Assembly: GCA_947595585.1 (NCBI GenBank)
Contig: CANQET010000004.1
Location: 1-64,000, forward strand
Origin: an uncultured Clostridia bacterium
GTDB lineage: Bacteria; Bacillota; Clostridia; Christensenellales; Borkfalkiaceae
Direction: 5' to 3'
Length of the DNA: 64,000 bases
The notes below the pieces were generated by a model. That model did no database searches. It was not told the DNA's origin and saw only the letters and a list, made by a program, of their open reading frames with translations. The position numbers and the translations under genes are program-made. How positions within the stretch are numbered: position 1 is the stretch's first letter; each line of letters starts with the position of its first letter. This document shows positions 1,283 to 18,081 of the stretch, in pieces.

Positions 1283-4200
1283 TTATTCTTTTAACGTTGT
1301 ACCATTCGTTGACCAAGAACCACCAAGCCTATAGCCGCCATTCGTTAATTCTCCAGTTACCGCATATTCATTCCCCGGCACCAAGGGATTCTTCGAGGCG
1401 GAATAAGTGTGCGTCCCATTTGCATTTGAAGAGAGCAAAGGTTCATTGCAACCGCTAATAGTAATTGTGATTTCCCAATTGTCTATTTGTTTGCCACACA
1501 GATAGATTTCTTTTACCAAGGTCTGAGTTGTATCAGTCTTTCCATGATATTTTTCTTCGCCCTTGACTTTAATAATGCATTCGATTACACCGTCATGTGT
1601 GCCCGAGTAAGATCCCACACTGAAACTATCTTTCAAATTAACTTTTATCACAGCCTTCTTCGCCAATTTAGGTTTCAACACCACGGCATCTTGATATGCA
1701 TCTTTATCCGCTTGATCGAGGGTATATACTCCACCGGCCTCAACCGCTTTCCCGTTCACGGTCCAACCATAGAAGTATTGATCGAATGTCACATCTTCAT
1801 CGTTGGTAGCATATACGGCATTATAATAATCCGAGAATTGCATGGTGGTTGTATTGGGCACGGTAATCGCCGCATCACCATAATACCAACCTGCAGAGTA
1901 TTCGTAGGACTTACCGTTTACTTCATCGGCTTTGAAAATAACCTGGGTCTTATTTTCCCACTTGGCATACAAGTCCGTATCCCCTGTCAAAGTACCGCTA
2001 AATTTCTCTGTGCAGCCGGAATCCGTGAACCACCCCACGAAGTAACGCTGATATGTTGTATCGCTATTCTTCGTAGTGAGGTCGGGCGCTTTCCAACTTG
2101 TATTTGTAGACAGAACCGTCTCCGACGAAGAATCGGCGTACTCATCGGAATTATAATGATACGTAACGGTAAATGCTTCCGTTCCTGCGGGATACCATCT
2201 GCCGTACAGGGTCAAACCCGTGTAGCTCCCGTCTTTATCTTTCAAAATCTCTTGTCCGTTGATAGAGTTCACGGACGTCGTAAACGAATCATCAAGATAC
2301 CACGCATCGAACACCAATTCGCCGTCTTTCGGTTCTTGAAGTTGGATAGTGCTTTCTATGTTAAACGTTGCGGGATTCTCGTTCGTAATAGGATCACCCG
2401 TTGCCGCCGCCTCGCCTACATAATTATCCATATCATAGGTTATATTATAATCTTTTGGCGTCCACTTGGCATAGAGGTCGAGCTGTCCGCCGCCCAAGAC
2501 GGTGACGGTAGCGTTTATAAGTTCGCCGTCGGCATCGATGACCGGTGTGCCGTCGAAAAACGTCCACCCGCCAAAATTATAGTGTGTTCTGCTTACATTC
2601 GGAGACGTCACTTTCGATGCCCAATCGGAATAGGCGGCCCCCAACAAAACATCATTGTTTACTATCTGTGAAATGCTTTCGCCTGTAATGCCTGTTACAT
2701 TCTCGCCGTTTGCATGATAATTGATAGTATAGCTTGTCGGTGCACGCCATGCGCCTTGTAGATAATTATAGGTGACGTTTTGCACAAAATTACCGTCTCC
2801 CTTGCCGCCCGCTTGCCCGAGCATGCCATGGGCATTCACAGTTGTAACGGTACCCGTGAAGGTAGTTACGAGACTTGCATCGACTAAAAAATCTTGCTGA
2901 ACATTAAATGTTCCTGTTCCACCTATGTATCCAGTATTACTATTCGTAGCGCTGAAATTTAATACTGCCGAATCAGAACCGGTAATATTCCCTCCGAATT
3001 TTCCTTGCAAAGTCAACGAACAATTTGCACCAACCTTCACTTCACTGTTCCCATAACAGATGATCCCGTCCTCTGTATTTGTAGCGGTGAATTTCGCCTT
3101 CTCTGTTAATTGAAGGGTAGCTCCATCCATAAATTCATAGCCGTATGCAGAAGTTGAATCGCCGCCCGATAAAATCAAATCGAAATGAGAGGGGATCGGG
3201 AACTTGATTTTTGCCGTACTCATCTGCACCGTTGCGGGCGCAACAGTCATATTCAGTGCAACATAACCGCCCTCAAAACCATTCGAAATTGTTATTACCT
3301 CACGTGATTTCTCAACCTTCTTTTCAAAAGTTGAACCATTTTTAAGACGGAACAGCCCATTTGTCCCTGATGTGCTGCCAACGATCGTTAATTCCGCAAC
3401 GGACAATCTTGCCTTGATCGTGATGCCCATTGCCGTTTTTTCACCAGTATAAATTCTTACATCACCTTGATAAACGGTACCCGATGAAATACTAAGCGTG
3501 GGACCGTTGATCGCTTGCAGTTTATAATCTTCAAAGGGAAATTCGTTAGGATTATCTGCGGTGATGTTGAGACCAGAACCTATAGAGCTACCTATCCATT
3601 GGCTCCAATCCCCCATGAAACGGCCGGCAGCACTGGAACCACCCGGCCAATCTACAATTTCCATACGCTCGAGAACAGTTCCGTTTGTCGCATTGACGAT
3701 TCCCGTTCCCGTAATATTGCCATAGACTTTTAATGTGTTTGTGGAAACAAGCGTTGCCTGCTCCCCACTCAATACTAACTCGGCATAGCCGCCTGAAATA
3801 CCCCCTTGCGGCTTCTCTGTATTCGTTCTGCCTGTCAGACCGCCAACTACCAATGTTCCTTCATTTTTCAATTCAATTTGGTTCGGAACCGTTAAAGACA
3901 AAAAACGCACAGGACTATAAGCCGAAGGCATTCCTTGCGGCTCTTCGCCTCCGGCGTGAAAACCCGTCGTATCCTCTGCGCTGTACGGCAATAATAATGT
4001 TTCGCCGCTTGAAACGGTATAATTCCCATTCCCCATTGAATATCCGGCGAGGGAAGCAACGCTTGTGCCCGCAAAAGAAGTATCATGTTTTACGGTCGCA
4101 TTGCCGTTTTGTGCCAATGCGTCTTCAATGGTATAGAGGGTGCCGTTTACATCTACTGTTTTGTATTTGAACAGTAGCTCCCTAAATGTTGCATATGACC

Positions 4201-4696
4201 CGTCCAAATAAATATAGTCATTGCTCGCTTGATTTTGGTTCCAACCTTCCAAATGATCTACATCGGGATAGGTGCCAACAATCGCATATTGATCATCGAT
4301 ATTGATCGTAACGCCGGAAATCTGATACGTGCTTCCGACGGTTACGGTATTTTTCTCAACTTTTAAGTCTGTTCCATTGGAAACGGATAGACTATAGGTG
4401 ATTTGAATTGACGAGGTTAAATCTATTACTTGCTTCGCGGTTGGATCATAAAATTCAAATTTTAAGTCGTGTGAACTTACTTTCTCTTTATCGGAAATAT
4501 CTGTCAAATTGATCCCCGATTCCGTATAATCCGCTTCCAAAACGCGCTTTATGTAAACCGGCGTCTGCTTGTTTTCTGCCCAATGGGGTTCAAAAGATGT
4601 GGGGCTGGAGATGATCCATGTGGAAGCGCCGACCGCGCAAAGCAGGGCCGTGAGAAGCGTGAGAAGGATGATGAGGTATTTTCTCGTACGATTCAT
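1283..4696 (-). CDS. Large secreted protein with InlB B-type repeats
   Basis: This is a 1137-residue exported protein. It opens with a basic N-terminus and a signal-peptide-like hydrophobic segment (about residues 7-25) ending in GASTW, resembling the GFASW ends of the two TasA-like proteins nearby. The middle is threonine-, serine- and glycine-rich beta-structure of unknown fold. From about residue 660 it carries at least three repeats ending in LYAKW or LYGRW with internal FGGW/FDAWY/FVGW motifs. These are Listeria-Bacteroides (InlB B, Flg_new) repeats, associated with adhesion. No LPxTG motif or C-terminal membrane helix is visible, so retention on the wall would need another mechanism. 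The start lies 9 bases after the stop of the upstream TasA-like gene, so the two are probably co-transcribed. Confidence 0.8.
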   Translation of the reverse strand: MNRTRKYLIILLTLLTALLCAVGASTWIISSPTSFEPHWAENKQTPVYIKRVLEADYTESGINLTDISDKEKVSSHDLKFEFYDPTAKQVIDLTSSIQITYSLSVSNGTDLKVEKNTVTVGSTYQISGVTINIDDQYAIVGTYPDVDHLEGWNQNQASNDYIYLDGSYATFRELLFKYKTVDVNGTLYTIEDALAQNGNATVKHDTSFAGTSVASLAGYSMGNGNYTVSSGETLLLPYSAEDTTGFHAGGEEPQGMPSAYSPVRFLSLTVPNQIELKNEGTLVVGGLTGRTNTEKPQGGISGGYAELVLSGEQATLVSTNTLKVYGNITGTGIVNATNGTVLERMEIVDWPGGSSAAGRFMGDWSQWIGSSIGSGLNITADNPNEFPFEDYKLQAINGPTLSISSGTVYQGDVRIYTGEKTAMGITIKARLSVAELTIVGSTSGTNGLFRLKNGSTFEKKVEKSREVITISNGFEGGYVALNMTVAPATVQMSTAKIKFPIPSHFDLILSGGDSTSAYGYEFMDGATLQLTEKAKFTATNTEDGIICYGNSEVKVGANCSLTLQGKFGGNITGSDSAVLNFSATNSNTGYIGGTGTFNVQQDFLVDASLVTTFTGTVTTVNAHGMLGQAGGKGDGNFVQNVTYNYLQGAWRAPTSYTINYHANGENVTGITGESISQIVNNDVLLGAAYSDWASKVTSPNVSRTHYNFGGWTFFDGTPVIDADGELINATVTVLGGGQLDLYAKWTPKDYNITYDMDNYVGEAAATGDPITNENPATFNIESTIQLQEPKDGELVFDAWYLDDSFTTSVNSINGQEILKDKDGSYTGLTLYGRWYPAGTEAFTVTYHYNSDEYADSSSETVLSTNTSWKAPDLTTKNSDTTYQRYFVGWFTDSGCTEKFSGTLTGDTDLYAKWENKTQVIFKADEVNGKSYEYSAGWYYGDAAITVPNTTTMQFSDYYNAVYATNDEDVTFDQYFYGWTVNGKAVEAGGVYTLDQADKDAYQDAVVLKPKLAKKAVIKVNLKDSFSVGSYSGTHDGVIECIIKVKGEEKYHGKTDTTQTLVKEIYLCGKQIDNWEITITISGCNEPLLSSNANGTHTYSASKNPLVPGNEYAVTGELTNGGYRLGGSWSTNGTTLKE

Positions 4697-4705
4697 TGCG
4701 TCTCC

Positions 4706-5356
4706 TTATTCGCCGTTTGAGACGGCGACGACGAGGGAAAACGGGTTTTTGAAGGTCGTCTCTTCCGCAGTGGCGCCCGATGTTACAGCTAAGACTTCAT
4801 ACAAATTCGTGTAATTATCGCCTGTATGTTTGAACATGAACTTGCCTTTCAGGGCATTTGCCTGCCCAATCACTGATTTGGCGTTTCCTACCGTAAACGA
4901 AAATTCTGCATGCGTGGAGGTGTAAATAGGTTCATCTACAGTTATTTCCGCACCCGACTCTATCATTTCGAATTCGATGTTACTGAATAATGCCTCTTTC
5001 GCATCTTCTTGCAAGCTTTCGGTTACACCATTTTTGAATGTTAAGGTGAGCTTTACGATTAGTTTGTTTGTGGCGTTGACAAAGTCCTCAAATGTATTAT
5101 TGTCTTTGATCGTGAAAGAAACATCGCAAGTGTTCTTTTCGGGCTCAAACCTTTTCTCCGTTACGACGAAGTTTTCCGTAACGACCGTGACGGTTACATA
5201 ATCGTCGCTGACGATGATGTCTTCGGAGGAGAGGCTGCCCGTGGATTCTGCATTGATGTCGGTGCCGTCGTTGACGTACCACGAGGAAAAGCCCACGCAG
5301 ACGAGGGAACAGCAGGAAAGCACGGCGATGAGGCTTATGAGTGCTCTTTTGAACAT
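4706..5356 (-). CDS. TasA/camelysin-like SipW-type secreted protein
   Basis: A 216-residue protein with a hydrophobic N-terminus (about residues 4-24) ending in GFSSW, followed by a short spacer and a beta-rich domain. This arrangement, a long hydrophobic leader ending in a small-residue-W motif, is characteristic of TasA/camelysin-family proteins matured by SipW-type signal peptidases. It resembles the protein at 17183-17968, whose leader ends in GFASW. A clear AAAGGAGG Shine-Dalgarno precedes the ATG. The neighbouring signal peptidase at 15239-16258 is the obvious candidate maturase, and the downstream InlB-repeat protein may share the pathway. Family assignment rests on leader pattern, size and context; the mature sequence is diverged. 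Confidence 0.6.
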   Translation of the reverse strand: MFKRALISLIAVLSCCSLVCVGFSSWYVNDGTDINAESTGSLSSEDIIVSDDYVTVTVVTENFVVTEKRFEPEKNTCDVSFTIKDNNTFEDFVNATNKLIVKLTLTFKNGVTESLQEDAKEALFSNIEFEMIESGAEITVDEPIYTSTHAEFSFTVGNAKSVIGQANALKGKFMFKHTGDNYTNLYEVLAVTSGATAEETTFKNPFSLVVAVSNGE

Positions 5357-5370
5357 GGGTCTTCCTCCTT

Positions 5371-5950: not shown

Positions 5951-5952
5951 CG

Positions 5953-7077
5953 TCAGTCGTTGGGGATGAAGTGGGCGTAAAGGGTCATGTCGGAGAGGAT
6001 GGGCGTGAGGTCGGTGAAACGGCCCGCGTTGACGTTGACGGTGCCGTCTTCGTTGAGCTTCGTATACCATCCGTCGAAGGTGAAGCCCTCGCGCTCGGGC
6101 GTGGGGATCTCATAGCCCGAACGGTAGAAATAGGAGCCGTGGTTCATGACGATGGGCGTATCCATGAGGGTGCCGCTATCGATCATGAAGCGCACGACGT
6201 GGGTATCCGAGCGCTTATCGGAGAGGTCCATGATGACCGTCCAGCCCTCGTTATCCTTATGATAGATCTTATAGTTGAGGCGGTCGAAGTAGAAGTCGCC
6301 ATAGCTGCCCGCGTTGGGGGAAGGGGCGTCTTCGCCGACCGTCCAATTATTGACTTTGGGGATCCTCGTGGTGAGGGAAGTGCCGTCGGTGAGTTCGATA
6401 ACGAGGTAGACGTAGCTCGGGTCGCTTGCGGTGAGGTAGTTATCGACGCGGACGGAGGCGATGCCGACGCCCTGTTCGCCCTTATCGCCCTCGGGCATGG
6501 GGAATTCATAGACGACGGGCTCGCCGTCTTCCCCGGCTACGGCCATGGTGATGACGATGTAGGTGGTGCCTGTCTCTTCGTCGACGCGGGTGGTGATGCT
6601 CGTGATGCGGTCGCCGTCGATGCCGTTGTGGATGGTAAACTCGCTCGTATCGCCGTTGGAAAGGGTGATGGAGAGGCGGTAATCGCCCGTCTCCTCATCG
6701 AGTTCGCAGGTGAAATCGGTGGGGAAGACGCTGTTTTCGAAGGTGAATTCGGAGGGATCGCGGGTCTTATCGGTATAATTCACGGTGATCTTGATCCGAG
6801 CGCCGTCTTCGACGAGTTCGGCGGTGACATCGGAGATGCCGTTGCCCTCTTTGCCCTCTTCGCCGTTGGGAAGGAAGAACATGCTATCGGGGTATTCGTC
6901 GCCGACGTAATCGATGATGACGAGGATGCCCTCTCTCTCGTCCTGTGTGGCGGGACGGTAGTAGATATTTTCGATCTCGCGGCGCTCTTCTTCGGCGAAG
7001 AACGTGCACGCCGCGGCCGTAAGCAAGAGAATGCCGATGAGGATCGCGGAGAAGAGTTTTCCGATTTTTTTGATCAT
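5953..7077 (-). CDS. Lipoprotein with C-terminal InlB-type repeat
   Basis: A 374-residue protein with a type II signal peptide: basic start, hydrophobic core and lipobox LTAAAC (Cys about residue 24). It should be lipid-anchored on the outer face of the membrane. The middle contains acidic beta-strand repeats and short collagen-like pieces (GEEGKEGNGIS, GDKGEQGVGI). The C-terminus (about residues 310-374) has FTFDGWYT ending in LYAHF, one InlB B-type repeat. It is the last gene of the coupled operon that starts at 16985, only 15 bases after the beta-helix gene. Function is unknown; it could be the surface partner of the co-transcribed ABC system or a fibre-associated adhesin. Confidence 0.75.
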   Translation of the reverse strand: MIKKIGKLFSAILIGILLLTAAACTFFAEEERREIENIYYRPATQDEREGILVIIDYVGDEYPDSMFFLPNGEEGKEGNGISDVTAELVEDGARIKITVNYTDKTRDPSEFTFENSVFPTDFTCELDEETGDYRLSITLSNGDTSEFTIHNGIDGDRITSITTRVDEETGTTYIVITMAVAGEDGEPVVYEFPMPEGDKGEQGVGIASVRVDNYLTASDPSYVYLVIELTDGTSLTTRIPKVNNWTVGEDAPSPNAGSYGDFYFDRLNYKIYHKDNEGWTVIMDLSDKRSDTHVVRFMIDSGTLMDTPIVMNHGSYFYRSGYEIPTPEREGFTFDGWYTKLNEDGTVNVNAGRFTDLTPILSDMTLYAHFIPND

Positions 7078-7092
7078 GATGTGAGCTCCTTC

Positions 7093-9675
7093 TTATAGTT
7101 GGTTGCGGATGAGGTCGCGATAGTTGGGCGCGATCGGCTTTCCGTTCTCATCGAAAAGTCCTTCGGCGGAAGTCTCGAACTGGAAGCGGAAGGGCTCGAA
7201 GCCCGTGACCGCCGTGACCGTCTTCGTGAGGACTTCCTTCATGTATCTGATGAAGTCGCGGTTGGAGAGTACGCCGCTGAGGCCGCCGCTTGCGAGACCG
7301 GAGAGATCGAGCGTCGTCGTGAGGTTTAAGTAACTGTCGAGGAGGTCGACGTCGTAGGTTTGGGAGAGCACCTTGCTCTCGATGTTCTCCGAGGTGACGG
7401 AGGAAGCGTTTCGGCCGCCGCCGTAGTAAGCGACGGGGATGCTGATGTATTCCGTGGAAGTCTCGGTGCCCTCTTCATCGGCGGAGGTCATCGTATAGGT
7501 GAGACGTGCGCCGCGTGCGACCGAGGTGAGGATATCTTTGAGGGGGAAGATATCGTCGATCGTGATATCGAAGCTGCCCATATCGAGCCCGGCGACGAGA
7601 TCTGCGATGTGCTGATCGATGAGGCCCGAGATATCCCAATCGCGGAGGGACTTATAGTCGTAGAAGCGCGTATCGCCCGTGAGCTCCACGCTAACGGGGA
7701 GACTTGCCCCGGAGACGTTGTTGGGGAACATAGGGATTGCGGCATCGAGCATTCCGCCGAGGAGCCCCAAGATCCCGCTGATGAGCGACGGCGCATTGTT
7801 GTAGAGGAAGGGCCCGTTGAACATGTTGTTGACGCCGATGCTCGCGATGCCGCTGCGGTAGAACACGGTATCTTTGACGACGGTCGTGCCGTCGAACGTG
7901 CTGCCCACCGCATCCACCCGATCGAGCCCTCTCTGGATGGAGTGCAGTGCCGCCTTCATCTGCTGTTTTTGTGACTTGGGGTCGTATTTCGGGACTTCGG
8001 GCGGCTCGAGGACGTCGTTGAGGTCGGAGAATCCCGCCACGAAGAGGCTGAGGATCTGATCGCCCAAGATGGGGCCTTCGGGCGTCCCCGCGGCGAGATA
8101 ATCGGCCGTCGTCGCGGAGTAGGAGGAGCCGTCGAGCAGGGTGAAATCGTGGAGGGCGGAGTCGTCGGGCGAATTCTTCACATAGTTGTTGCTGCCCACT
8201 TCGAGCAGGAAGTTGCGGGACGTGCTCAAAATGCAGTTTTCGATCGTAAGCCCCTCGGAGCTGAAGCTGCGGAGGATGTTCTTGCCGTTTTGCAGGACGC
8301 AGTTCTTCACCGTCGTGCCGCTGCCGCGGACTTCGAGGACGGTCCCCGTGTAGTTGAGATTGGAGATGATGCGGCCGAAGTCGGCATTGGAGACCTTCAC
8401 GTCGTCGAAGAGGATGCCGTCGCCGTCGAGGTAGATGCCCGTGTTGTCCTGCCCGAAGGCGGTGACGAGGGGCGCCGTGCCGTTGGGATCGCCCAAAAGA
8501 TAGAAGGGCTTGGGGCCGCGGAAGAGATCGTCTTGGCCGAGGACGGCGATCTCATAGGTGCCGCCGTTTCCGTCCGACGTCTCGCGGCGGAGGGACGGGA
8601 AGCACAGATCGTGCAAATTCAGCCTGTAGCCGTTGCCGTAGAAATCCTTCTGTACGCGGAGCCCCGCGACGACATCGGCGTCGATCGGGCGGAAGCCGTT
8701 GCCGTCGGGCGTGCGGATCCATTCGTTCCACTGGTCGATGTATTCGTGGTTGTAGGTCGTCGGGAAGCGGTAGACTTCATCCGCAAAGCTCCCCTCTCCG
8801 CCGAAGCGGGTCACGTTGGAGGCCGTCTCGCCTTCGCAGTTGGCCGCAGATTCGAAATGTTTGCGGAGGACGACGATCTCCCCCTGCTCCGAACGGTTGG
8901 TGCAGGCGAGAAGATCTTCGTAGGTGTAGACGTTGACGCCCCCCGCGACGACCGTAAACACAAACGAGGCTGCGATATCGTCGTCGGCATTGCTGCGGAA
9001 GGCCACCTTGGTCGTACGGCCGTCCGGGAGGACGCCGCGGATGCGGATGGTCCCCTCCCCTTCCCGCATCTCCACGCGCACGTTGTCCGTGGAATTCACG
9101 CTGTCCCACACGATGGTCTTGAGGAGCTCGTCGTCGGAGACGGTGAGATCGAAGGGGATGGAGGCCTCGACCTTGGTGCCCGAGGCGGGATCGCGGTCGT
9201 ATTGGCCGTAGTAGAGCATCGGATCCACATTCTGCGCGGAGGCGTCCGTCTTGGTATTGATGACGAAGGCATTCCCCTGGTAGATGTAGGCCTGCATGCG
9301 CATGGGCGTGACGTTGCCCTTTTCGGTGCCGCAAGTGATCGTCACATAGCCCACCGAACGGGGAACGAGGTAGCTGTTGATGTTATCGGGGCTCTCGATC
9401 GCGGCATGGGGCTCTAAGGCGTCGTCGGCATTCTCCACCGACCACACGAGCCTGCTGCCCGCAGAGCCGAGGTCGGCGGCATTGGCGAGGATGCCCCGCG
9501 CTTCCAAAAGCTGCCGCCCGGCATCGAGGTTGAAGAGCTCGTTTTGGCGGTAATCCCACTCGATGCGGATGACGTCGTTATCGACGAGGTTGAAGGCGGC
9601 GTTGATCGTCACGATCCCGAAGAGCGAGACGAGGAAGGGAACGATCAACAGGATGGCAAGATTTCTCTTCTTCAT
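7093..9675 (-). CDS. Large exported protein with beta-helix-like repeats
   Basis: 860 residues. The N-terminus (MKKRNLAILL onward) is a signal peptide or signal anchor. Residues about 420-520 contain successive short strands of the kind VLEVRGSGTTVKNCVLQNG and GLTIENCILSTSRNF, the pattern of right-handed parallel beta-helices that present an elongated surface. The first 260 residues look like Ig-like or bacterial cell-surface beta domains. No catalytic motif of polysaccharide lyases is evident. The gene starts one base after the permease stop codon, so it is translationally coupled to the ABC transporter and is a plausible substrate or partner. I do not recognise a named family for the full length. 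Confidence 0.7.
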   Translation of the reverse strand: MKKRNLAILLIVPFLVSLFGIVTINAAFNLVDNDVIRIEWDYRQNELFNLDAGRQLLEARGILANAADLGSAGSRLVWSVENADDALEPHAAIESPDNINSYLVPRSVGYVTITCGTEKGNVTPMRMQAYIYQGNAFVINTKTDASAQNVDPMLYYGQYDRDPASGTKVEASIPFDLTVSDDELLKTIVWDSVNSTDNVRVEMREGEGTIRIRGVLPDGRTTKVAFRSNADDDIAASFVFTVVAGGVNVYTYEDLLACTNRSEQGEIVVLRKHFESAANCEGETASNVTRFGGEGSFADEVYRFPTTYNHEYIDQWNEWIRTPDGNGFRPIDADVVAGLRVQKDFYGNGYRLNLHDLCFPSLRRETSDGNGGTYEIAVLGQDDLFRGPKPFYLLGDPNGTAPLVTAFGQDNTGIYLDGDGILFDDVKVSNADFGRIISNLNYTGTVLEVRGSGTTVKNCVLQNGKNILRSFSSEGLTIENCILSTSRNFLLEVGSNNYVKNSPDDSALHDFTLLDGSSYSATTADYLAAGTPEGPILGDQILSLFVAGFSDLNDVLEPPEVPKYDPKSQKQQMKAALHSIQRGLDRVDAVGSTFDGTTVVKDTVFYRSGIASIGVNNMFNGPFLYNNAPSLISGILGLLGGMLDAAIPMFPNNVSGASLPVSVELTGDTRFYDYKSLRDWDISGLIDQHIADLVAGLDMGSFDITIDDIFPLKDILTSVARGARLTYTMTSADEEGTETSTEYISIPVAYYGGGRNASSVTSENIESKVLSQTYDVDLLDSYLNLTTTLDLSGLASGGLSGVLSNRDFIRYMKEVLTKTVTAVTGFEPFRFQFETSAEGLFDENGKPIAPNYRDLIRNQL

Positions 9676-9676
9676 A

Positions 9677-11269
9677 TCAGTTGACCACCTCCAGCTGCTC
9701 GAATAACTGCAGGATGCGCTTGCGGAAGCCGACCGTCCAAGGAAGGCCGCCCGCGACGACCACGGTGATGCCGATGGCGTAGGCGATATAGAGATTGAGC
9801 CCGAAGTAGCTCCCGAGGATCATGGCCCCCGCATAGAGCACGGGGATGACATAGGAGAACATCGAGGAGAAGAAGTAGCTGCGGGAACGGTTCTGGCGGA
9901 CCTGCAGCTCTTCATAGAGCGAAATGACGCTAAACGTCACTTGGATGAGCAAGGTGATGAGCAGCCCGAAGAGCGCCTCGGGGATCGTGAAGCATTGCAG
10001 GACGCACAGGATCCCGTAGCTCAGGATCACCGAGCCCGAGATGAAGGCGAGCGGCAGGCCGATCTTTACGGTGAGCTGCTGAAAGATGCCGACGGGGATC
10101 GTCTTGATGAGGCGGATGTTCTTCCCCTCCGAGGAGATGTAGCTGTTGGCCCCCTGGCTGATGATGAGGCTGATGAGGATGACCATCAACATATCGATGA
10201 TGGGCAAAAAGTTGGGCATGAGGGCGACATAATAGGCGAAGATGCCCGAACGGAAGATGGTATTCACCGAGGAGACGATGAGGTAGACGAGGAGCGGCTG
10301 GACGAGGACGAGCCCCGTGAAGGAGAAGAGATTGTTGCTGTCGCCGAACAGCAAGACGAACTCCTTCTTGATGAGCGCCCGCGTGACGGACGTGCTCCTG
10401 TAGACCGTCTTCTTGGTCCGCGCACGGCGGTTGAAGCGCACGCTGCGCAGGTAGTTGAAGCTGACGATGCACACCGTCGTCCCCAAGAGGAAGACGCCGA
10501 GCGCAACGCAGAGATAGATGCCGATCATGCGCAGATTGCCTGCGAAGAAGAGGTCGACGAGCCAGCCGAGCGGGATCATGTTGCGCTTTGCGGCGATCAT
10601 GGCGTCCACCGTGCTCGAGTTGATGATGGCATCGAAGTTGTTGGAGGCGACGAGCGAGACGAAGACGTTCAGCACGACGCTGTAGAGATAGCACAGCCCG
10701 AAGATGATGATGACGGCCACCGCAAGCTGCACCCATGCATGCTTTTTGAGGAAATCCGAGATGAGCTTGTAGGGATACACGAGGAGCAGGGAGACGCCGC
10801 ACTCGAAGGGGAAGGCCATCGCGGGATAGAAGAGCCCGAGGTAGTAGGCCATCTTGCCGCCGCCGTAGAGGACGTTATACGCCACGATGACGGGATAGGT
10901 GAACATGAGCTCGGTCACGTATTGGGTCAAGAACAAGAACAGCAGTTTGGAGAGGATGATCTGGCTGTTGCCGACGGGCATGCTCGCGAGCGTAGCGATA
11001 TCGCGTTCGTTGAAGAAGAGCTTCTTCGCCTGCGCGACGCCGAGCAGGATCATGAGCACGCTGATGATGCAGAGCGCGACGGAGAGGAAGGCGATCGGGG
11101 CGTTGACATAGGGCTTCAGGCGCGACAAAACGCCCGCCACGATATACGTTTCGATCGCGACGAACAGGGCGAAGAGCAGCGCGCTCAAGAGGTAGGAGAC
11201 CAGCCTCCACTTGCCCGCCTTTCCGCTTGCAAACATCAGTTTGAAGTCTTTTGCCAACAGGAAGATCAT
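9677..11269 (-). CDS. ABC-2-type transporter permease
   Basis: A 530-residue integral membrane protein with around ten or more hydrophobic segments, including pairs near residues 20-90, 130-220, 260-300 and 370-520. It lacks a periplasmic binding protein and is paired with a single ATPase gene, so it is probably an exporter-type permease acting as a homodimer or with two similar halves. The start was set at the ATG at 11269 because this gives a 4-base ATGA overlap with the ATPase gene; the open frame extends further upstream but only as shadow sequence. The substrate is unknown; context suggests surface-protein or cell-envelope material. Confidence 0.8.
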   Translation of the reverse strand: MIFLLAKDFKLMFASGKAGKWRLVSYLLSALLFALFVAIETYIVAGVLSRLKPYVNAPIAFLSVALCIISVLMILLGVAQAKKLFFNERDIATLASMPVGNSQIILSKLLFLFLTQYVTELMFTYPVIVAYNVLYGGGKMAYYLGLFYPAMAFPFECGVSLLLVYPYKLISDFLKKHAWVQLAVAVIIIFGLCYLYSVVLNVFVSLVASNNFDAIINSSTVDAMIAAKRNMIPLGWLVDLFFAGNLRMIGIYLCVALGVFLLGTTVCIVSFNYLRSVRFNRRARTKKTVYRSTSVTRALIKKEFVLLFGDSNNLFSFTGLVLVQPLLVYLIVSSVNTIFRSGIFAYYVALMPNFLPIIDMLMVILISLIISQGANSYISSEGKNIRLIKTIPVGIFQQLTVKIGLPLAFISGSVILSYGILCVLQCFTIPEALFGLLITLLIQVTFSVISLYEELQVRQNRSRSYFFSSMFSYVIPVLYAGAMILGSYFGLNLYIAYAIGITVVVAGGLPWTVGFRKRILQLFEQLEVVN

Positions 11270-12135
11270 TGCTCGGTTCCGTAAGTTTCGATGAAGAGCC
11301 GCGAGAGACGCAGGCGGAGGTTGGGCGAGTGGGCGAGGTCGTAGGAAGCGGCAACGACGCCGCCGTTCACGATCGCCACGCGGTCGCACAGTTTGGAGAC
11401 GAGCTCGATGTTGTGCGAGGTGACGAACACCGTCTTGCCGTGATTGGCGTATTCGCGCATCATCTTTTTGAGCTCCTCCACGGCCATAATATCGAGGCCG
11501 ACGGTAGGCTCATCGAGGATCCACACATCGGGATTGTGCAGAAGGCTCGCGACGAGGCAGAGCTTCTGCTTCATGCCGTGGGAATACCCCGAAATGGGAA
11601 GATGCAGATCGCTCTCTTTGAAGGAAAGCCGCCCCGTGAGGTATTCGGTATTCGCCTTGAAGTCCTTCTGCCCCACGCCATAGACGCTCGCGACGAACTC
11701 GAGGTAGTCATAGCCCGTCATGATATCGTAGCAGGTGGGTTCGCTGGCGACGTACCCGAAGAGCCGCTTGCATTCCACGGCCTCGTGGACGACGTCGTAC
11801 CCGCCGATCTCGATGGTACCGCCGTCGAAGCGTTTTACGCCGATCATGCAGTCGATCGTCGTGGATTTCCCGATACCGTTCCGCCCGATGAAGCCGAAGA
11901 GCTCCCCTTTGTAGACGTCGAGATCGATGCCTTTTAAGACCTCTTTCTTCCCGTAGGATTTTTGCAGCCCCTTGATGGAGATGGCGATCTCCTTCCCCCC
12001 CTTTTCGGGGGAAGCGGGCTTTGCGGGGGAAGCGGGCGCGGCAGGCGCCGCATCCGAAGAAGGCCGGGGGGCCTCTATCGTTTCTGCGGGTCTTTCTTCG
12101 GCTTTTTCGGTTTTCTTTCTCGTAAAAATGCTCAT
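11266..12135 (-). CDS. ABC transporter ATP-binding protein
   Basis: About 289 residues. After a charged, Ala/Pro-rich N-terminal tail of about 50 residues comes a complete ATPase domain. It has Walker A GRNGIGKST, signature YSHGMKQKL (a variant of LSGGQ in which SHGM replaces SGGQ, common in ABC-2 exporters) and Walker B WILDEPTVGLD, followed by the switch histidine in VTSHN. It energises the permease encoded immediately downstream. The ATG at 12135 overlaps the upstream stop by 4 bases. The extended tail is unusual for this class and may be an interaction region. Confidence 0.9.
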   Translation of the reverse strand: MSIFTRKKTEKAEERPAETIEAPRPSSDAAPAAPASPAKPASPEKGGKEIAISIKGLQKSYGKKEVLKGIDLDVYKGELFGFIGRNGIGKSTTIDCMIGVKRFDGGTIEIGGYDVVHEAVECKRLFGYVASEPTCYDIMTGYDYLEFVASVYGVGQKDFKANTEYLTGRLSFKESDLHLPISGYSHGMKQKLCLVASLLHNPDVWILDEPTVGLDIMAVEELKKMMREYANHGKTVFVTSHNIELVSKLCDRVAIVNGGVVAASYDLAHSPNLRLRLSRLFIETYGTEQ

Positions 12136-13412
12136 GCTTTTCTCAATTTGGCAAGCCACACTTTGCTTTCCGCAAAGCGCCACATGGAGCCGCAGCGGCC
12201 GCAGGTATAAAACGTTTGATTTCTCACTTCTTTGCCGCCGCAGACGGGGCAGCGGGTCTCATAGAGCGCCTTGCTCGCCGCGGTAAGCTGCGTCTTTTCG
12301 GCAAGATAGCGGGAAAGAAGCTCCGTTTCATTCCCCCTTGCGGTATGCCGCGGGAACACGTCCCCCTCGGCGTAGGCAAGATCCCACAGGTTTACGGCCT
12401 CGATGCTCGTGAGCCCCTCGGGGTATTCCGCAAGGTCTTTCCGGATGCTCCCGAAGTCCGCGGCGCCGTCGAAGAGCAGCAGATTTCGCGTACATGCCCC
12501 GCCGTTTTGCCTGTTTTCGACGTTCACATAGAGCCCGCCGAACTTCGTATCCGCCTCGAGTTTCAGATGGAATTCTCCCTTGGAGAAGGCCATGGGCCGC
12601 ACGATCCCCTCTCCCTTTTTGCCGCGGGAGGAAGGCGCAAAGCCCGCTTGGCGCAGGGCGAGCAGCATCCGCGTGAAGAAGTACGCCTGCAGGTCTTCCG
12701 TCCTCGCCTGTTCGTCGCCGTAGGTGACGTAGCGCACATAGAAGCGGAAGCAGTGATTATAGAGGCGGTTGTGCTTTAAGACGTTGGTCGCCTCCACATG
12801 GGTGAAGGCCGTGCCCGCCTTTTGGACCTCTTTATAGAAGAAGGTCCCCTTGATGCGCCGCACTTTCTTTGCGAGCGTCTCGAGGCGGAGGATGCGCTGT
12901 TCGAGCGCCGAGCCTTCGAAGGTGAGCGCCCCGTCCCGCGCGAGCGTTCCGAGGAGGTAGTCGTAGAATTTGGTATAATCGGAGATCTGGCTTCCGATCT
13001 GGTCGATGAGGTGGACGATGAAGCGGTTCTCGTAGTTGGCGAGGCGGTCGATGTTCTGGAAGTAGTAGACTTCCGCGGGCGTCATGACCCCGCGTTTATC
13101 TTTCCAGAGCCGCTGGTCGCGGACGGTATCGCGGAACATCTCGGGGGTGAGCCCGTGCGCCTGTTCGGCACGGAGGATGATGGTCTCCCTCTCGTTGACG
13201 ATATGCGGATGGGCGATGATCGACGTGATGACATTGAGCTCGGCGCCGATCTCCCGAAAGAAGGCCTCGTCGTTTTCGAGCTGCAGCTGTTGCAAGCTGA
13301 GCCCTTCGAGGGTTTGGATATCCCGCCAAAAGCAGGCGTCGTCGCGGGAAGCGGCATACTCCCCGATGGCGGCGACTTCTTCTTTCAGCAGTTTTTCGGC
13401 GCAATGGATCAT
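12132..13412 (-). CDS. Unknown protein with C-terminal zinc ribbon, partner of the AAA+ ATPase
   Basis: About 426 residues, no membrane segment. The N-terminal and central parts are helical and charged, with a motif ENRFIVHLIDQIG that loosely recalls DUF2357 proteins found beside McrB-like ATPases; I consider that relation possible, not shown. The last 50 residues hold two CxxC pairs (CPVCGG and CGRCGS) 16 residues apart, a zinc ribbon. The start was placed at the ATG at 13412, just after the stop of the ATPase gene, because the upstream extension is low-complexity shadow. Tight coupling on both sides suggests it works with the membrane AAA+ protein. No nuclease catalytic motif is obvious. 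Confidence 0.6.
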   Translation of the reverse strand: MIHCAEKLLKEEVAAIGEYAASRDDACFWRDIQTLEGLSLQQLQLENDEAFFREIGAELNVITSIIAHPHIVNERETIILRAEQAHGLTPEMFRDTVRDQRLWKDKRGVMTPAEVYYFQNIDRLANYENRFIVHLIDQIGSQISDYTKFYDYLLGTLARDGALTFEGSALEQRILRLETLAKKVRRIKGTFFYKEVQKAGTAFTHVEATNVLKHNRLYNHCFRFYVRYVTYGDEQARTEDLQAYFFTRMLLALRQAGFAPSSRGKKGEGIVRPMAFSKGEFHLKLEADTKFGGLYVNVENRQNGGACTRNLLLFDGAADFGSIRKDLAEYPEGLTSIEAVNLWDLAYAEGDVFPRHTARGNETELLSRYLAEKTQLTAASKALYETRCPVCGGKEVRNQTFYTCGRCGSMWRFAESKVWLAKLRKA

Positions 13413-13419
13413 GACGGTA

Positions 13420-15258
13420 TCAGAGTTTCTTGAGGAGATTGCGGATGACTTTTTCGCTGCGTTTGAAGACGCCTTCGCCATACGTGCTATCGAACAGTTC
13501 GACGACGTGCTTCAAGCCGTCTTTGATGTAATCTTCGAAGCGTCCCTCGAGCTTTGCGAGGATCTTGCGGGCGAAGATGAAGTCGAGCACCTCTTCCTTG
13601 GTGCCGCCGCAGGCGATATAGGTGGGTACGAGCGCCTCGATCTGGTTGAGGACGCGGTTCCCGAAGGCGATATCGAAGGTATCGTAGATGTAATCGGTGA
13701 TGCGGGAAAGTTTGTCGATATCCCCCTTCGTGAGCCTGTTCTCCGTCTCTTGGAGGGCGGCGTCGAAGAGGCTGTGGAGGGCTGCGGCGCCGAGCACGAT
13801 GGGCTCCGAAGGCCCCTCTGCCTCGAAGGCGTCGTTGCGGTTATCGAATTCGATGGGGATCGCACGGTCGTAGACCTTATCGGCGATCGTAAACGTACTG
13901 TCGTCTTTGTTTGCCGTACCCACGAAGTAGCAGTTTTCGGGGATACGGATGATGCCGTCTTCGAGCTTCACGGGCGGAAGGAAGTCTGCGGGAAGCTGCA
14001 TGAGGCGCAATTTCCACTCCGAGGAGGGATATTCGAGCACCGAGAGGAAGTCGGCGAAGTAATACTCCACGCGGGAGATGTTGAGTTCATCGAGGACGAA
14101 GACGTTGATGCGGTCCCCGTCGTAGTTGGCTTCATAGAGCGCGGTGAGGAAATCCGTCTCGTTATACGTCTTGCTGAAGTCGTTGAAATAGCCGAGCAAG
14201 TTCGTGCGGTCGCGCCAAGTGGCCTGCACGGGGATGAAGGTCGCCGTGCCGCCCACGTATTTTGCGAAATAGCGGGGAAGCGAGCTCTTGCCCGTACCGC
14301 TCAGACCCTCGAGGAGGATGAAGCGGGAGGCATTGAGGCCGCTGATGAACATGCGGATGGTCTCGCGGTCGAAGTAGAGCTTCTCCGTCTCGGCGAGATA
14401 GTTGCGGAAGCCCTCCGCAAGGGTGAAAAGCGTCACATCCGAGCTCTCGAGAAGTTCGGCGTCGAAGCCCTCGTAGCGTGCATCCACCGAGGAGAGCGCG
14501 GGGAAGACGATCTCGCGCGCTTCGAGCTCGACGGTCCCGCCCGAGACGGTCGCACTGCCGTTTCCGCCGCCTCCGCCACCGCCGCCGGAGCCGCCGCCCG
14601 TCCCCTCTCCGCCCGAGGAAGCCGAAGCGCTTGCCGCCTCGCCGCCATCGAAACTTTCGGCGACGACCGCATCCTTCTCCTCGTTTTCGGCGAGGATATC
14701 TTCGAGCGAAGCGTCGTCGAAGAAGTCGAAGGGCTCGTTGACTTTACGGAAGTTGACGACGAGCATGACGATCGAGCCGATCATCAACGCGAGCATCACA
14801 TAGAGCATGAGGGCGATCGCGAGGCACTCACCCACGAAGATGAGGTGGTTGAGGACGTTCTCCGCCGTGATCCGCGGCTGAATGAGCAGCCCCAGCCCGA
14901 GCGAGAGCGCAAGGCAGCCGATGAAGGTCGCGATGTAGATGAGCCACATGCGCCACGAATACATCTTCTTGCCGTTGACGAAGGCGAACCGCCGTTCGAA
15001 CACGACCGCGATCGTAAAGATGATGCAGTAGATCGCGACGAGCGCCACGCAAACGAGGCCGAAGATCCCCGAGGAGATCTGCTTGAAGCGCATCGCATCG
15101 GCCATGAGGGCGATGGGATTTTTCGCACTCACGATCGAGCTTTCGCTGCGGTCGAGGCAGAGCGCCACGAAGATCATGAGGATGGAGAACAGCGCGACAA
15201 GAGCAAAGGAAATGAAGTTCTTGCGCGTAAAGTATTGCTTATTGTTTTTTGTCATCAT
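13420..15258 (-). CDS. Membrane-tethered McrB-like AAA+ ATPase
   Basis: 612 residues. Four hydrophobic segments (about 14-34, 63-86, 103-126, 141-168) precede an acidic stretch and a Gly-rich linker (about 215-241). A AAA+ domain of the dynein-related/McrB class follows: Walker A GLSGTGKSS (318-326), Walker B INVFVLDELN (about 384-393) and sensor-1 FVGTANKDD (about 445-453), followed by DRAIPIEF. Known McrB proteins are cytosolic GTP-driven restriction subunits; a membrane-anchored form inside a secretion operon suggests a remodelling role, such as assembling or extracting exported subunits. That role is inference. The start overlaps the signal peptidase gene by 20 bases. Confidence 0.8.
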   Translation of the reverse strand: MMTKNNKQYFTRKNFISFALVALFSILMIFVALCLDRSESSIVSAKNPIALMADAMRFKQISSGIFGLVCVALVAIYCIIFTIAVVFERRFAFVNGKKMYSWRMWLIYIATFIGCLALSLGLGLLIQPRITAENVLNHLIFVGECLAIALMLYVMLALMIGSIVMLVVNFRKVNEPFDFFDDASLEDILAENEEKDAVVAESFDGGEAASASASSGGEGTGGGSGGGGGGGGNGSATVSGGTVELEAREIVFPALSSVDARYEGFDAELLESSDVTLFTLAEGFRNYLAETEKLYFDRETIRMFISGLNASRFILLEGLSGTGKSSLPRYFAKYVGGTATFIPVQATWRDRTNLLGYFNDFSKTYNETDFLTALYEANYDGDRINVFVLDELNISRVEYYFADFLSVLEYPSSEWKLRLMQLPADFLPPVKLEDGIIRIPENCYFVGTANKDDSTFTIADKVYDRAIPIEFDNRNDAFEAEGPSEPIVLGAAALHSLFDAALQETENRLTKGDIDKLSRITDYIYDTFDIAFGNRVLNQIEALVPTYIACGGTKEEVLDFIFARKILAKLEGRFEDYIKDGLKHVVELFDSTYGEGVFKRSEKVIRNLLKKL

Positions 15259-16258
15259 TCGTCCTCGTTTCGATGGTTATGATTTTGGTTTGCCGCGAGG
15301 CGCCATCGTCTATGATTTTGAGCATATCATTCGGTTCCGTCGTCTGCTCCCCCGGCGGAACCTCGGATTTTTTTACGAAGCCCTTCTCGTTGAAGTGATA
15401 TTCGTAACCTTTGTAGTAGATGATCTCGAGATATTCGGCCTTGAGGTCCTTCACATCCGAGAGGTCGTCGATGACGGCCATGAGCTGATCGATCCTCGCC
15501 TGCTCCGCCTTCTCGATCTTCCGCGATACGGCGTCGATCATGAAGAGGCAGTAGATGACGGCGACGATCGTCACGATCCCGGGGACGGACTGCACGAACA
15601 TCACGAAGATGCCCACCGTCCGCGCTCTTCCCCCCGTGTATACGCCCACCACGTCGTTGAGGTTGGGGCGGTAGTAGTCGTCGGAATTGTTGCTGTCGCC
15701 GCGGGTGATAAAGCGCACCCCGCCGGGGCTGTTGTCCTCGACGGAGATGATCTCGCGGATGCGGTGGATGATCGTCGTCCCCTCGTTGTTGCGGTAGGCG
15801 ATCACGTCGTATTGCTTGAGATCTTCCGCCTTCTTCACCTTTTGGATGACGATCACATCGTAGGTGTTGAATTGGTTATCGAGCTGCTCTGTATCGAGAT
15901 AGGTGTTCACGGGGTTGCGCTGGCTCATGGAAGCCGAGGCGACGACGAGGATCCCCCGATCGAACACAGGCCCCTTGGTGAACTTCCCGATGATCGAGAG
16001 GATGAGCACGGGGATGATGATGACGAGGAAGAGCACGAAGAGCACCGTCCGCACGATGGCAAACGCCTTGCGCCTGCGGGTGACCTTGGGGTCCTTCTCC
16101 TTGATCGCCGCATCGATGAGGTCGATATCCCGCTTGCCCGTCTCGATCTGGTTCACCGTCGACTTGCGGTAGGCAAAGTAGAGCAGCGTGAACACACCCG
16201 CAAAGCACAGGAGACCGAAAAATGTTACAACGATGGAAATGAGTTCGGATTGCTGCAT
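15239..16258 (-). CDS. SipW-type (S26B) signal peptidase I
   Basis: 339 residues. Hydrophobic segments lie at about 7-30, 67-91 and 213-238. The catalytic Ser is in VVASASM (Ser110). In place of the bacterial lysine there is a histidine in TTIIHRI (His165), followed by FITRGDSN. A Ser/His pair marks the archaeal/ER-like S26B class to which SipW belongs, which matures TasA-type fibre proteins. The extra N-terminal helix and a charged C-terminal tail of about 95 residues are additions relative to SipW. It is encoded one base after a TasA-like gene, with other likely substrates at 17183 and 4706. Confidence 0.88.
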   Translation of the reverse strand: MQQSELISIVVTFFGLLCFAGVFTLLYFAYRKSTVNQIETGKRDIDLIDAAIKEKDPKVTRRRKAFAIVRTVLFVLFLVIIIPVLILSIIGKFTKGPVFDRGILVVASASMSQRNPVNTYLDTEQLDNQFNTYDVIVIQKVKKAEDLKQYDVIAYRNNEGTTIIHRIREIISVEDNSPGGVRFITRGDSNNSDDYYRPNLNDVVGVYTGGRARTVGIFVMFVQSVPGIVTIVAVIYCLFMIDAVSRKIEKAEQARIDQLMAVIDDLSDVKDLKAEYLEIIYYKGYEYHFNEKGFVKKSEVPPGEQTTEPNDMLKIIDDGASRQTKIITIETRTNDDKKQ

Positions 16259-16259
16259 A

Positions 16260-16985
16260 TCACACCTTCGGGCTGGCGATGAGCGTCAATGTAAACGTGG
16301 GGAGAGAAAACGCACTCCCGGACATCACCATATCATAGAAATCGTTGAGCGTCTCGCGCATCTCGTCGTAGGAGATATCCGCGCCCGCTTCGTCGTAGTA
16401 GAGGCTCGGATTGATCCCGCCGAAGATCTCCCCCCAGGCAAGCGTGAGGGTGAACTTCACCCGCCATGCGTCTTGCTCGGGAATGGAAGTCCCGTCCGAG
16501 AGCGGGATCTCGATGCGCTTCGGCTTCCCCGCCTCCATATCGTAGTAGGCGTCGATATCGAGATACCCCTTCTTCGCCGCATCGATCACCCCTTGCGGGA
16601 GCTCGAGCTCGTATTCGAATTGCTGCAGATAGCGCGAATGCTCGATGACGACGTCGACTTCGACGTTGAGCTTCTCGCAGTCCGTCCCGTTCCACATGAG
16701 GCGGCCCGCGTAGTCGTCCTTTGCAGAATCGAAGCGGAAGCCCGTGTTCACCCTGTGGTCGTCGGATTCGAGGTCTACCTCGAGCCCGTCGAGGGAGACG
16801 CGGCCGAAGTCGAGCGGGCTGTCGATCACCCCCGCGACGGTGATCGTGCTCCCGAGGGAACCGCTTAAGGCGCTGAAGAGCAGCCAGATGGCGATCCCCG
16901 TCACGATGAGCACCACCGCCACGAAGATGAGCGCCGCCGTCATGAGGCGCTTCCGCGAATACTGTTTTTTGGTAAGTTTTGCCAC
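16260..16985 (-). CDS. TasA-like single-pass exported protein
   Basis: About 241 residues. A basic N-terminus (KLTKKQYSRKR) is followed by a hydrophobic segment (about 17-40) and then a beta-rich domain starting STITVAGVID. The layout matches the TasA/camelysin-like neighbours but without the small-residue-W motif. A GTG start at 16985 was chosen because GAGG lies 8 bases upstream; an in-frame ATG at 17024 falls in the intercistronic hairpin region. It is the first gene of the coupled operon and sits directly before the signal peptidase, the position TapA holds relative to SipW in Bacillus. A TapA-like accessory role is inference only; no TapA sequence motif was seen. Confidence 0.6.
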   Translation of the reverse strand: MAKLTKKQYSRKRLMTAALIFVAVVLIVTGIAIWLLFSALSGSLGSTITVAGVIDSPLDFGRVSLDGLEVDLESDDHRVNTGFRFDSAKDDYAGRLMWNGTDCEKLNVEVDVVIEHSRYLQQFEYELELPQGVIDAAKKGYLDIDAYYDMEAGKPKRIEIPLSDGTSIPEQDAWRVKFTLTLAWGEIFGGINPSLYYDEAGADISYDEMRETLNDFYDMVMSGSAFSLPTFTLTLIASPKV

Positions 16986-17022
16986 TCGCTTTTCCTCAAC
17001 TTTGCCCGGGAATTTCGGGGGC

Positions 17023-17152
17023 ACGCGCGCATATATTAGATACGCGTGCGCGCGTAAGAATTTCGGGGCAGAATGCGCCCCGCCGCGGACTCCAAGCCCG
17101 CGTCAATATGAAACTGAGGGGAACAGTAAAGATCTATTCCCCTACAGCTTCA
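17023..17152 (-). promoter_or_regulatory. Three intercistronic hairpins below the major TasA-like gene
   Basis: Between the TasA-like stop (17183) and the next start (16985) the transcript can form three hairpins. The first, 17109-17152, is a long imperfect stem with AGGGGAA/TTCCCCT at its core. The second, 17065-17081, is GGGGC/GCCCC. The third, 17023-17055, is a perfect 9-bp stem ACGCGCGCA/TGCGCGCGT. None is followed by a good U-run, so they look like partial terminators or mRNA-stability elements rather than a full stop. Confidence 0.55.
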
Positions 17153-17182
17153 TAGAGTGATTTTGTGTTATTTACGGAAGGC

Positions 17183-17968
17183 TTAGGCCTTATTGGGCGC
17201 AGATTGGGTCGCCGTGAAGGTGATCGTATAGGTGGTATCGGTAATATTTTGGTTCATCCAAGTAAGCACACCCTTGGCGATCTCACCCCAAGTTGCCGCA
17301 CTGCCGTTTTCGGGCGTACCAACCGTACCGCCGGCGATTGTCCAGTCCGAAGCAGCTTCGTTTTGTCCTTTCACATTGAAGAAGTTATAAGGATTTTGGC
17401 TACCAAAAGCAGAGCCCCAATTGAAAGTTGCGGTGATGTGGAACGTCGTCGAAGACGAGAAATCGAACCCTTCGGCACTCTTGAATTTCACTGTGGCCGA
17501 ACCTTCCGATTGATCCGTGATTGTGATATCTTCCGCGCTCGTAATGGCGCCGGTAGGCGCAGTTTTGCCAACCATATATGTAGGATATCCGACGATCAAG
17601 TTATTCGTTACCGCAGTATCAAAGTTTGCACCTTCGTGTGAGAAAGCGATCTTAAAAGACCCGACCTTGCCTTCGACCGTAACAGTAATATCAACCGCAA
17701 GTTTGCCCTGTCCCGTAGATTGATCTTCAACGAGCCAAGCTCTATCAATATTCATCTCAGCGGGAGAGCCGAAGATGATATTTGCGCCCTCTTCGGGCGA
17801 GACGCTCAACTTGATTCCCTCATCACTTACGGCTTCGGCGGTGACATTGCCCGTCGTGGTGGCTTCCTGTGAGTCCAAAATGACCCAGCTTGCAAAACCC
17901 GTGCCGACCATCGCGACGCATGCGAGCACCGAGGCGGCGACTGCGATCAACCTTGATTTCGATCTCAT
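17183..17968 (-). CDS. TasA/camelysin-like secreted protein (likely major fibre subunit)
   Basis: About 261 residues. The leader MRSKSRLIAVAASVLACVA continues to GTGFASW, then a linker with GNVTAEAVSDEGIKLSV and a beta-sandwich-like mature domain. This is the pattern of TasA/camelysin proteins cleaved by SipW. The ATG at 17968 has AAGGAG upstream; the longer open frame above it is untranslated leader. It has its own strong promoter (18054-18081) and is separated from the downstream operon by hairpins, as expected for an abundantly made subunit. No cysteines or catalytic residues stand out. Whether it actually forms fibres is inference. Confidence 0.72.
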   Translation of the reverse strand: MRSKSRLIAVAASVLACVAMVGTGFASWVILDSQEATTTGNVTAEAVSDEGIKLSVSPEEGANIIFGSPAEMNIDRAWLVEDQSTGQGKLAVDITVTVEGKVGSFKIAFSHEGANFDTAVTNNLIVGYPTYMVGKTAPTGAITSAEDITITDQSEGSATVKFKSAEGFDFSSSTTFHITATFNWGSAFGSQNPYNFFNVKGQNEAASDWTIAGGTVGTPENGSAATWGEIAKGVLTWMNQNITDTTYTITFTATQSAPNKA

Positions 17969-18053: not shown

Positions 18054-18081
18054 ATTATACCTCACCCCCCCCCCGTGTCAA
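18054..18081 (-). promoter_or_regulatory. Promoter with G10 tract in the spacer (possible phase variation)
   Basis: On the minus strand a perfect TTGACA (18076-18081) and a perfect TATAAT (18054-18059) are separated by 16 bp: C, ten G, then TGAGG. The ideal spacer is 17 bp. A homopolymer at this position is prone to slipped-strand mispairing, and each one-base change alters promoter strength, as known for spacer tracts in fimbrial and porin genes of other bacteria. Confidence 0.8.

Follow-up and report, generated by a model that had tools for sequence, protein, structure and literature searches.

What kind of gene system joins a signal peptidase to an McrB-like AAA+ nucleoside triphosphatase (NTPase) and an ATP-binding cassette (ABC) transporter? 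The question is raised by nine minus-strand open reading frames (ORFs), g1 to g9, all intact and free of internal stops, at 17968–5953 of a 64,000-nucleotide (nt) stretch from an uncultured Clostridia bacterium (CANQET010000004.1, 1–64,000; hereafter the window, whose positions serve as coordinates throughout). An earlier note, made from the letters alone, had called them a nine-gene export island and had suggested a dedicated assembly machine for a surface fibre. We find that the nine-gene set is, with near certainty, a real, order-conserved gene system, and that the island is a stable merger of two modules.

The evidence for a system comes from gene order in other genomes. A g4 profile scan of 84,980 species genomes gave 322 relatives, and the best 80 were analysed; these loci were chosen by g4 likeness to the window's, so their share of full sets is not that of all 322. 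In 44 of them the order T-T-3-4-5-6-7-8-9 (T, the secreted family of g1 and g2; digits, homologues of g3 to g9) is unbroken on one strand, and many others are cut by contig ends. Such co-occurrence across distant genomes was the check that the earlier note had called for. The 44 loci are recorded as Clostridia (16), Bacilli (15), Mollicutes (2), Erysipelotrichia (1) or without class (10), the carriers being uncultured bacteria, mainly from the gut, and the order is kept at g4 amino-acid identities down to 42%. Counting all ORFs with one profile per gene, and taking as eligible those loci whose contig is long enough, neighbours were adjacent in 52/54 (T-T), 57/57 (T-3), 65/74 (3-4), 80/80 (4-5), 68/75 (5-6), 66/67 (6-7), 61/61 (7-8) and 54/55 (8-9) loci, with joints from 3-4 onward mostly of 30 nt or less. 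The T-T pair stands ahead of the peptidase. The nine failures of 3-4 adjacency comprise four loci with a g11-like gene in between, by a broad profile (L107, L111, L112 and L125), and five where the peptidase is not there (L135, L139, L142, L143 and L147); homologues of g6 to g8 are missing in L130 and L145 and displaced in L149. The full set occurs in a record titled Anaeroplasma bactoclasticum (L078), which is assigned to the wall-less Mollicutes.

With g8 as a second anchor, 396 genomes of the order yielded eight close copies (at least 819 bits), the window's included. The full nine surround the copies in G562, G621, G748, G751 and G085, and those in G119 and G685 are consistent with it up to the contig ends; these seven loci were already within the 80 and add no new ones. 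None of the eight close copies in the 396 genomes was seen outside the nine-gene set. In a phylum-wide sample the nine-gene form occurred only in the window's own genome (1/398). It is conserved but rare.

Outside this family the two halves live apart. Module A consists of the SipW-type peptidase, its substrates, the McrB-like NxD NTPase with about five transmembrane (TM) spans and the McrC-like zinc-ribbon protein; module B consists of the ABC ATPase, the ABC-2 permease and the anchored beta-helix protein, and it stands alone elsewhere, this genome included. Because loci of each type occur separately, we regard the island as a merger. Relatives of g4 occur in 36 of 151 genomes of the order, and 37 loci around them were examined (G036 and G087 were left out). 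With two nine-gene loci and three where gene picking lost the g4 gene set aside, 32 remain; in 16 of these a SipW-type peptidase, assigned by clustering, lies on the same strand within 7 kb, and in the other 16 there is none. All 30 members of the peptidase cluster match SipW models; a search around AAA genes with an S26B regular expression (6/29 loci) missed true members and was not relied on. TYAWF-type secreted proteins lie beside many of the 16 peptidase-linked loci, where blastp at 1e-4 found no match to g7 or g8, and ABC ATPase matches in several. A quick tree of 98 AAA cores placed the nine-gene family on a branch separate from the peptidase-linked relatives, 22 g4 relatives splitting from it with a Shimodaira–Hasegawa-like approximate likelihood ratio test support of 100; the tree omits relatives that fail the motif filter, those 22 being its rows outside the family. 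The nine-gene branch also includes six AAA–partner pairs without peptidase and two loci without ABC genes, and membership was labelled as nine-gene unless parts were known to be missing, cut contigs included. At five loci (L047, L051, L053, L055 and L057) two AAA+ genes of the g4 kind lie close together without a SipW-cluster peptidase nearby, followed in L047, L053 and L055 by large membrane-anchored proteins.

Module B was traced through distant g8 homologues, which are the only g8 matches in 70 of 396 genomes. Of 15 such loci (one in this genome and 14 sampled elsewhere, including one in G085 in addition to its close copy), 14 have homologues of g6, g7 and g8 in order, two with one ORF between the latter pair, and the fifteenth is cut by the end of its contig; matches to g3, g4, g5 or T at E 1e-5 are absent from all 15. 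The copy in the window's own genome (G000:C2:145134-151142; L153 5134-11142) is a second, distant module that adjoins a giant repeat protein and lacks AAA, peptidase and T genes. A motif scan for Listeria–Bacteroides repeats found them beside standalone modules at 1/15 loci and is too narrow, finding 20 of 61 g9 copies; by Pfam, two of three large neighbours tested carry MBG_2 and Flg_new repeats. The earlier note had held that ABC, AAA+ and peptidase genes lying apart in all relatives would speak against a system; they stand together in the 44 loci, and the halves are found apart outside the nine-gene family.

The secreted proteins and their putative peptidase open the island. The g3 protein passes the NCBIfam model sigpep_I_arch (52.0 bits, cut-off 51.85), the sole such match in the genome, and matches the SipW model at 3.7e-16 (59.3 bits), short of the stricter SipW equivalog cut-off of 190 bits. 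Both models are matched by 25/25 aligned family members, in which S110, H165, D188 and D194 are invariant, among them the Ser-His catalytic pair S110 and H165. Pfam matches of g3 to 7tm and DUF families fell below cut-off as weak membrane-segment matches and were discarded. In the T family, G24, F25, W28, W184, N192 and P193 are invariant (31 aligned), and the T profile at E 0.01 finds three proteins in the whole genome, all in this unit (g1, g10 and g2, the last at 37.9 bits). The SipW-class signal motif G-x-A-x-W is present in 141/161 complete T ORFs and 15/108 other ORFs with a hydrophobic N-terminus, the T ORFs having been chosen by profiles that themselves include the signal. On the simplest reading, the T proteins would be SipW-type fibre subunits and g3 their peptidase.

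These proteins had been called TasA-like, which is apt only as to signal type and beta-sandwich fold; the predicted structure of g1 is such a sandwich with a poorly ordered N-terminus (predicted local distance difference test, pLDDT, 77). The TasA/camelysin family, whose family name we take to be Peptidase_M73, was matched neither by g1 or g2 in Pfam and NCBIfam at E 1, nor by nine T proteins in NCBIfam at 0.1, nor by the T profile in the PDB at E 10. Homology to TasA was thus not supported by sequence searches, nor was it found by fold comparison. A T gene also lies downstream of g9 in the relatives L070–L075, and in several relatives T is followed by a gene that the broad g11 profile picks up; the window's g11 matches TIGR02543 at 2.8e-5. 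The hidden Markov models of T and g11 were built iteratively and drifted towards each other, merging T subtypes and leaving g11 counts rough. Five to seven T genes stand in tandem upstream of the peptidase in L101, L103, L104, L105, L117, L132 and L148.

Next to the peptidase, g4 and g5 form a pair resembling McrB and McrC. With its family profile, the best PDB matches of g4 are E. coli McrB structures (6hz4/6ut6, ~1e-5). It has the Walker A and LDExN motifs and an NxD signature of the form N450-K-D452-D453, whose N and both D are invariant in 10/10 aligned proteins, and T[AM]NxD[DE] is present in 72/75 AAA proteins. Hydropathy predicts five TM segments, whereas peptidase-linked relatives outside the nine-gene family have one to three; by alignment and hydropathy, a Gly-rich linker follows them and the E/K-rich stretch of those relatives is missing. 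A Pfam match of g4 to MprF, below cut-off, was dismissed as a weak membrane-segment match. Of the 46 members of the g5 family, 31 match DUF2357 with an E-value of at most 0.01 and 15 do not (best 3.9e-10; the window's g5 reaches only 0.014), and the zinc-ribbon cysteines C411, C414, C427 and C430 are invariant in all 46. The earlier note had seen the ribbon correctly and had overlooked the McrC-like family behind it. Judged by sequence columns in the 46 members, no PD-(D/E)xK nuclease residues are conserved: past residue 250, acidic residues reach 80% at a single column (263) and Lys at none. By family, g4 is an McrB-type AAA+ protein and g5 an McrC-like (DUF2357) zinc-ribbon protein.

The second half of the island has the layout of a known transporter module. 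In NosD-NosF-NosY(-NosL), an ABC ATPase, an ABC-2 permease, an extracellular beta-helix protein and a lipoprotein are adjacent, and ATP drives movement of the outer beta-helix, NosFY acting on NosD. The likeness of g6–g9 is one of gene architecture only, in the near-constant 6-7 and 7-8 adjacency given above; g8 differs in having no match to a NosD-named family, and there is no copper context. The g7 protein itself has no Pfam match, its family showing weak matches to ABC2_membrane_4 (8/39) and ABC_tran_2 (6/39). An AlphaFold model of g8 (pLDDT 85.8) has an N-terminal helix, two Ig-like domains and a beta-helix. At E 0.01 the 46 members of its family match four Pfam families, among which the name NosD does not occur; Beta_helix is matched by 8/46. 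NosD was absent among the matches listed in structure searches with g8, an absence that does not exclude it. In g9, the lipobox cysteine C24 is invariant in 20/20 aligned proteins. Profile searches, the g8 model and the lipobox bear out the identities first given to the SipW-type peptidase, McrB-like ATPase, ABC exporter, beta-helix protein and lipoprotein. Downstream of the island in one relative (L033, 199-1437, minus strand) lies a GH5 cellulase with a lipoprotein-like start (Cellulase 2.9e-28).

The nine genes are tightly packed, as first described: from 16985 to 5953 all joints are overlaps or gaps of 15 nt or less (1, −20, 7, −4, −4, 1 and 15 nt from g2 to g9), and 197 nt separate g1 from g2. 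The start of g5 was set at 13412, and not at the mechanical 13481, because homologues start there. The genes are co-directional as claimed, but the transcription unit probably does not end with them. Within it, the minus strand offers terminator candidates of only five or six pairs before a 13-pair hairpin at 1264-1233, with g10 and g11 in between; the unit is therefore likely to have 11 genes, from a sigma-70 promoter to that 13-bp terminator, and to reach 1283 (Table 1). Nothing resembling a terminator was picked up by the scan from g9 to g10; the 596-nt gap there may leave room for a second promoter. Terminator-like sites in the region total 25 against a shuffled mean of 20.7, near chance. 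A promoter match of 12/12 occurs once in the region 900–19100, in none of 300 first-order Markov sequences of it, and three times in the whole window.

Table 1. Genes and signals of the putative 11-gene unit, in window coordinates.
Feature	Position	Strand	Description
g1	17183..17968	-	T-family secreted protein, 261 amino acids (aa), signal ending GFASW, probable main fibre subunit; intact ORF
g2	16260..16985	-	Second T-family secreted protein, 241 aa, GTG start
g3	15239..16258	-	S26B (SipW/archaeal-type) signal peptidase, 339 aa
g4	13420..15258	-	Membrane McrB-like NxD AAA+ NTPase, 612 aa, five predicted TM segments
g5	12132..13412	-	McrC-like DUF2357 protein, C-terminal zinc ribbon
g6	11266..12135	-	ABC transporter ATPase; PF00005 7e-22
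g7	9677..11269	-	ABC-2 permease, ~13 hydrophobic segments (hydropathy)
g8	7093..9675	-	N-terminally anchored, probably extracellular; two Ig-like domains then right-handed beta-helix; 860 aa
g9	5953..7077	-	Lipoprotein, 374 aa, C-terminal Listeria-Bacteroides repeat (List_Bact); PF09479 1.2e-8
g10	4706..5356	-	Third T-family secreted protein, 216 aa, 596 nt downstream of g9
g11	1283..4696	-	Large secreted repeat protein, 1137 aa, SipW-type-like signal (GASTW), List_Bact repeat; intact ORF
Promoter-like TTGACA-16-TATAAT	18054..18081	-	12/12 sigma-70 consensus, 85 nt upstream of g1
Intrinsic terminator-like hairpin	1233..1264	-	13-pair stem, T-rich tail, just 3' of g11

Three further features flank the unit. 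Short intergenic repeats of the type CGTCATTCCGAGG...GAGGAATCTC lie upstream at about 18300-18850. Beyond them, on the same strand at 19045-22917, is a gene whose 1290-aa product combines a TIR domain (TIR_2 3.7e-9), TPR repeats and leucine-rich repeats of the BspA type (LRR_5 2.3e-67), separated by hydrophobic segments. At the window edge (1-800), a regular periodicity of three residues in the reading frames points to a gene with collagen-like repeats.

Part of this combination has been described. CoCoPALM systems, which pair an FtsB-like TM/coiled-coil McrB with signal peptidases, are treated in a few sentences and deferred to a later paper in the study (PMC11090510, eLife 2024) that, in its available text, also defines the NxD clade of McrB-like GTPases and attributes activation of McrB-type rings to the stalk of McrC's DUF2357 domain. 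As far as that text goes, module A resembles CoCoPALM in combining an NxD-clade McrB-like GTPase with membrane segments, an McrC homologue and a neighbouring signal peptidase, and differs in lying on a separate branch of the AAA tree and in having about five TM segments in g4, apparently in place of an FtsB-like TM and coiled coil; the nine-gene set has the ABC ATPase, permease, beta-helix protein and lipoprotein in addition. The whole words ABC, SipW and TasA do not occur in the paper's main text. The earlier statement that no such system had been described thus overlooked CoCoPALM; of the nine-gene form itself we found no published description in the literature searched, with subscription journals largely outside its coverage.

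The sipW operons offer a second comparison. tapA-sipW-tasA of Bacillus subtilis, sipW-tasA/calY of B. cereus and sipW-bsaA of Clostridium perfringens share with the island a private SipW-type peptidase and small secreted beta-rich proteins; the T proteins match no TasA family model, and the available accounts of the three operons name no AAA+, McrC-like or ABC gene. In the available text, secretion and polymerisation of BsaA in C. perfringens both require SipW (PMC7395162), and TasA polymerises through an N-terminal donor strand (PMC9674648). With McrBC Type IV restriction systems the island shares the McrB AAA+ core and an adjacent DUF2357 partner gene; it differs in that g4 has membrane segments in place of the DNA-reading domain, and that g5 lacks conserved nuclease residues and ends in a zinc ribbon.

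On balance, we think it probable that the genes of the island encode a single machine, which produces small beta-sandwich T proteins and builds them into a surface fibre. The subunits would be g1, g2 and g10, perhaps with the repeat protein g11. Judging by their signals, Sec would export the T proteins and the SipW-class G-x-A-x-W signal would hold them in the membrane, where the co-located g3 may serve as their private S26B peptidase; cleavage would free a new N-terminal segment, a possible donor strand in polymerisation, as in TasA. By its family, g4 could form a membrane-anchored McrB-type ring at the cytoplasmic face, with g5 stimulating hydrolysis and its zinc ribbon coupling the ring to a partner. 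Since membrane segments replace the DNA reader and a zinc ribbon replaces the nuclease, g4–g5 should act on proteins at the membrane, and the pair might gate or drive delivery of subunits to the peptidase. Outside the membrane, the ABC pair g6–g7 may act on g8 as NosFY does on NosD, which would capture, fold or release subunits, while the g9 lipoprotein could hold or cap the fibre base. From the likeness of the ABC, beta-helix and lipoprotein genes to NosFYDL, together with the McrBC-like pair, we propose that an inner motor (g4–g5) and an outer motor (g6-g7-g8) serve one fibre. More tentatively, as a possibility on the doubtful side, we suggest that an McrBC-type ring turned membrane protein-handling motor and an ABC/beta-helix engine constitute a two-motor, sortase-independent, donor-strand fibre pathway.

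Several observations weigh against a single fibre machine. The AAA–partner pair occurs without T or peptidase, and ABC/beta-helix modules without the other genes; the available descriptions of SipW fibres name neither motor and report that BsaA polymerises by itself in E. coli. The fold of g8 is common to glycan-cutting enzymes, and PADLOC lists AAA+ proteins of the g4 kind as a defence candidate. The unaided polymerisation and the g8 fold would suit an operon for a biofilm matrix. There the peptidase and the T proteins would need no help to build fibres, the ABC pair would export a separate product (a glycan, lipid or peptide), the beta-helix protein would be a glycan-active enzyme working on it and the McrBC-like pair would be a regulator. 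We judge this unlikely: g8 retains an N-terminal anchor and has 8% identity to glycan-active enzymes, glycosyltransferase models match none of the nine proteins, and adjacency over two classes with tight 3-4-5 and 6-7-8 joints favours one machine.

Less likely still is a defence system, with phage attack sensed by a membrane-bound McrBC related to CoCoNuTs and with the secreted fibre or the peptidase serving as effector or surface shield. The NxD McrB motif common to g4 and CoCoNuTs, the match of g4 to the PADLOC candidate PDC-M26A (8.9e-41) and the patchy occurrence within the order (close g8 in 8/396 genomes) are in its favour, but nuclease residues are not conserved in g5, the products are mostly secreted and the gene order is, in our judgement, more rigid than in usual defence islands. 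Seven of the nine proteins match nothing in PADLOC, and the 19 models matched by g6 (best mad3, 2.2e-25) we attribute to the common ABC-type ATPase fold. That the genes are neighbours through chance or a shared strand alone deserves next to no credence: both halves do occur separately in other genomes, but the nine-gene order recurring in 44 of the best 80 loci, across the g4 divergence described above, contradicts it.

What is new is the nine-gene merger with the ABC/beta-helix module; the CoCoPALM-like link between McrBC and peptidase is known. McrBC-type NTPases are known as nucleic-acid restriction motors, and here one is operon-locked with a signal peptidase and its likely substrates over two classes; given that link, it probably works on proteins at the membrane. 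As a compact, order-fixed set with two separable halves, the nine-gene form offers a handle on how McrBC comes to be linked to pilus assembly in CoCoPALM, so far unexplained, and it is a candidate for a fibre pathway that needs no sortase among uncultured Firmicutes and Mollicutes of the gut. If the proposal is true, a two-motor pathway would be common to walled Firmicutes and wall-less Mollicutes.
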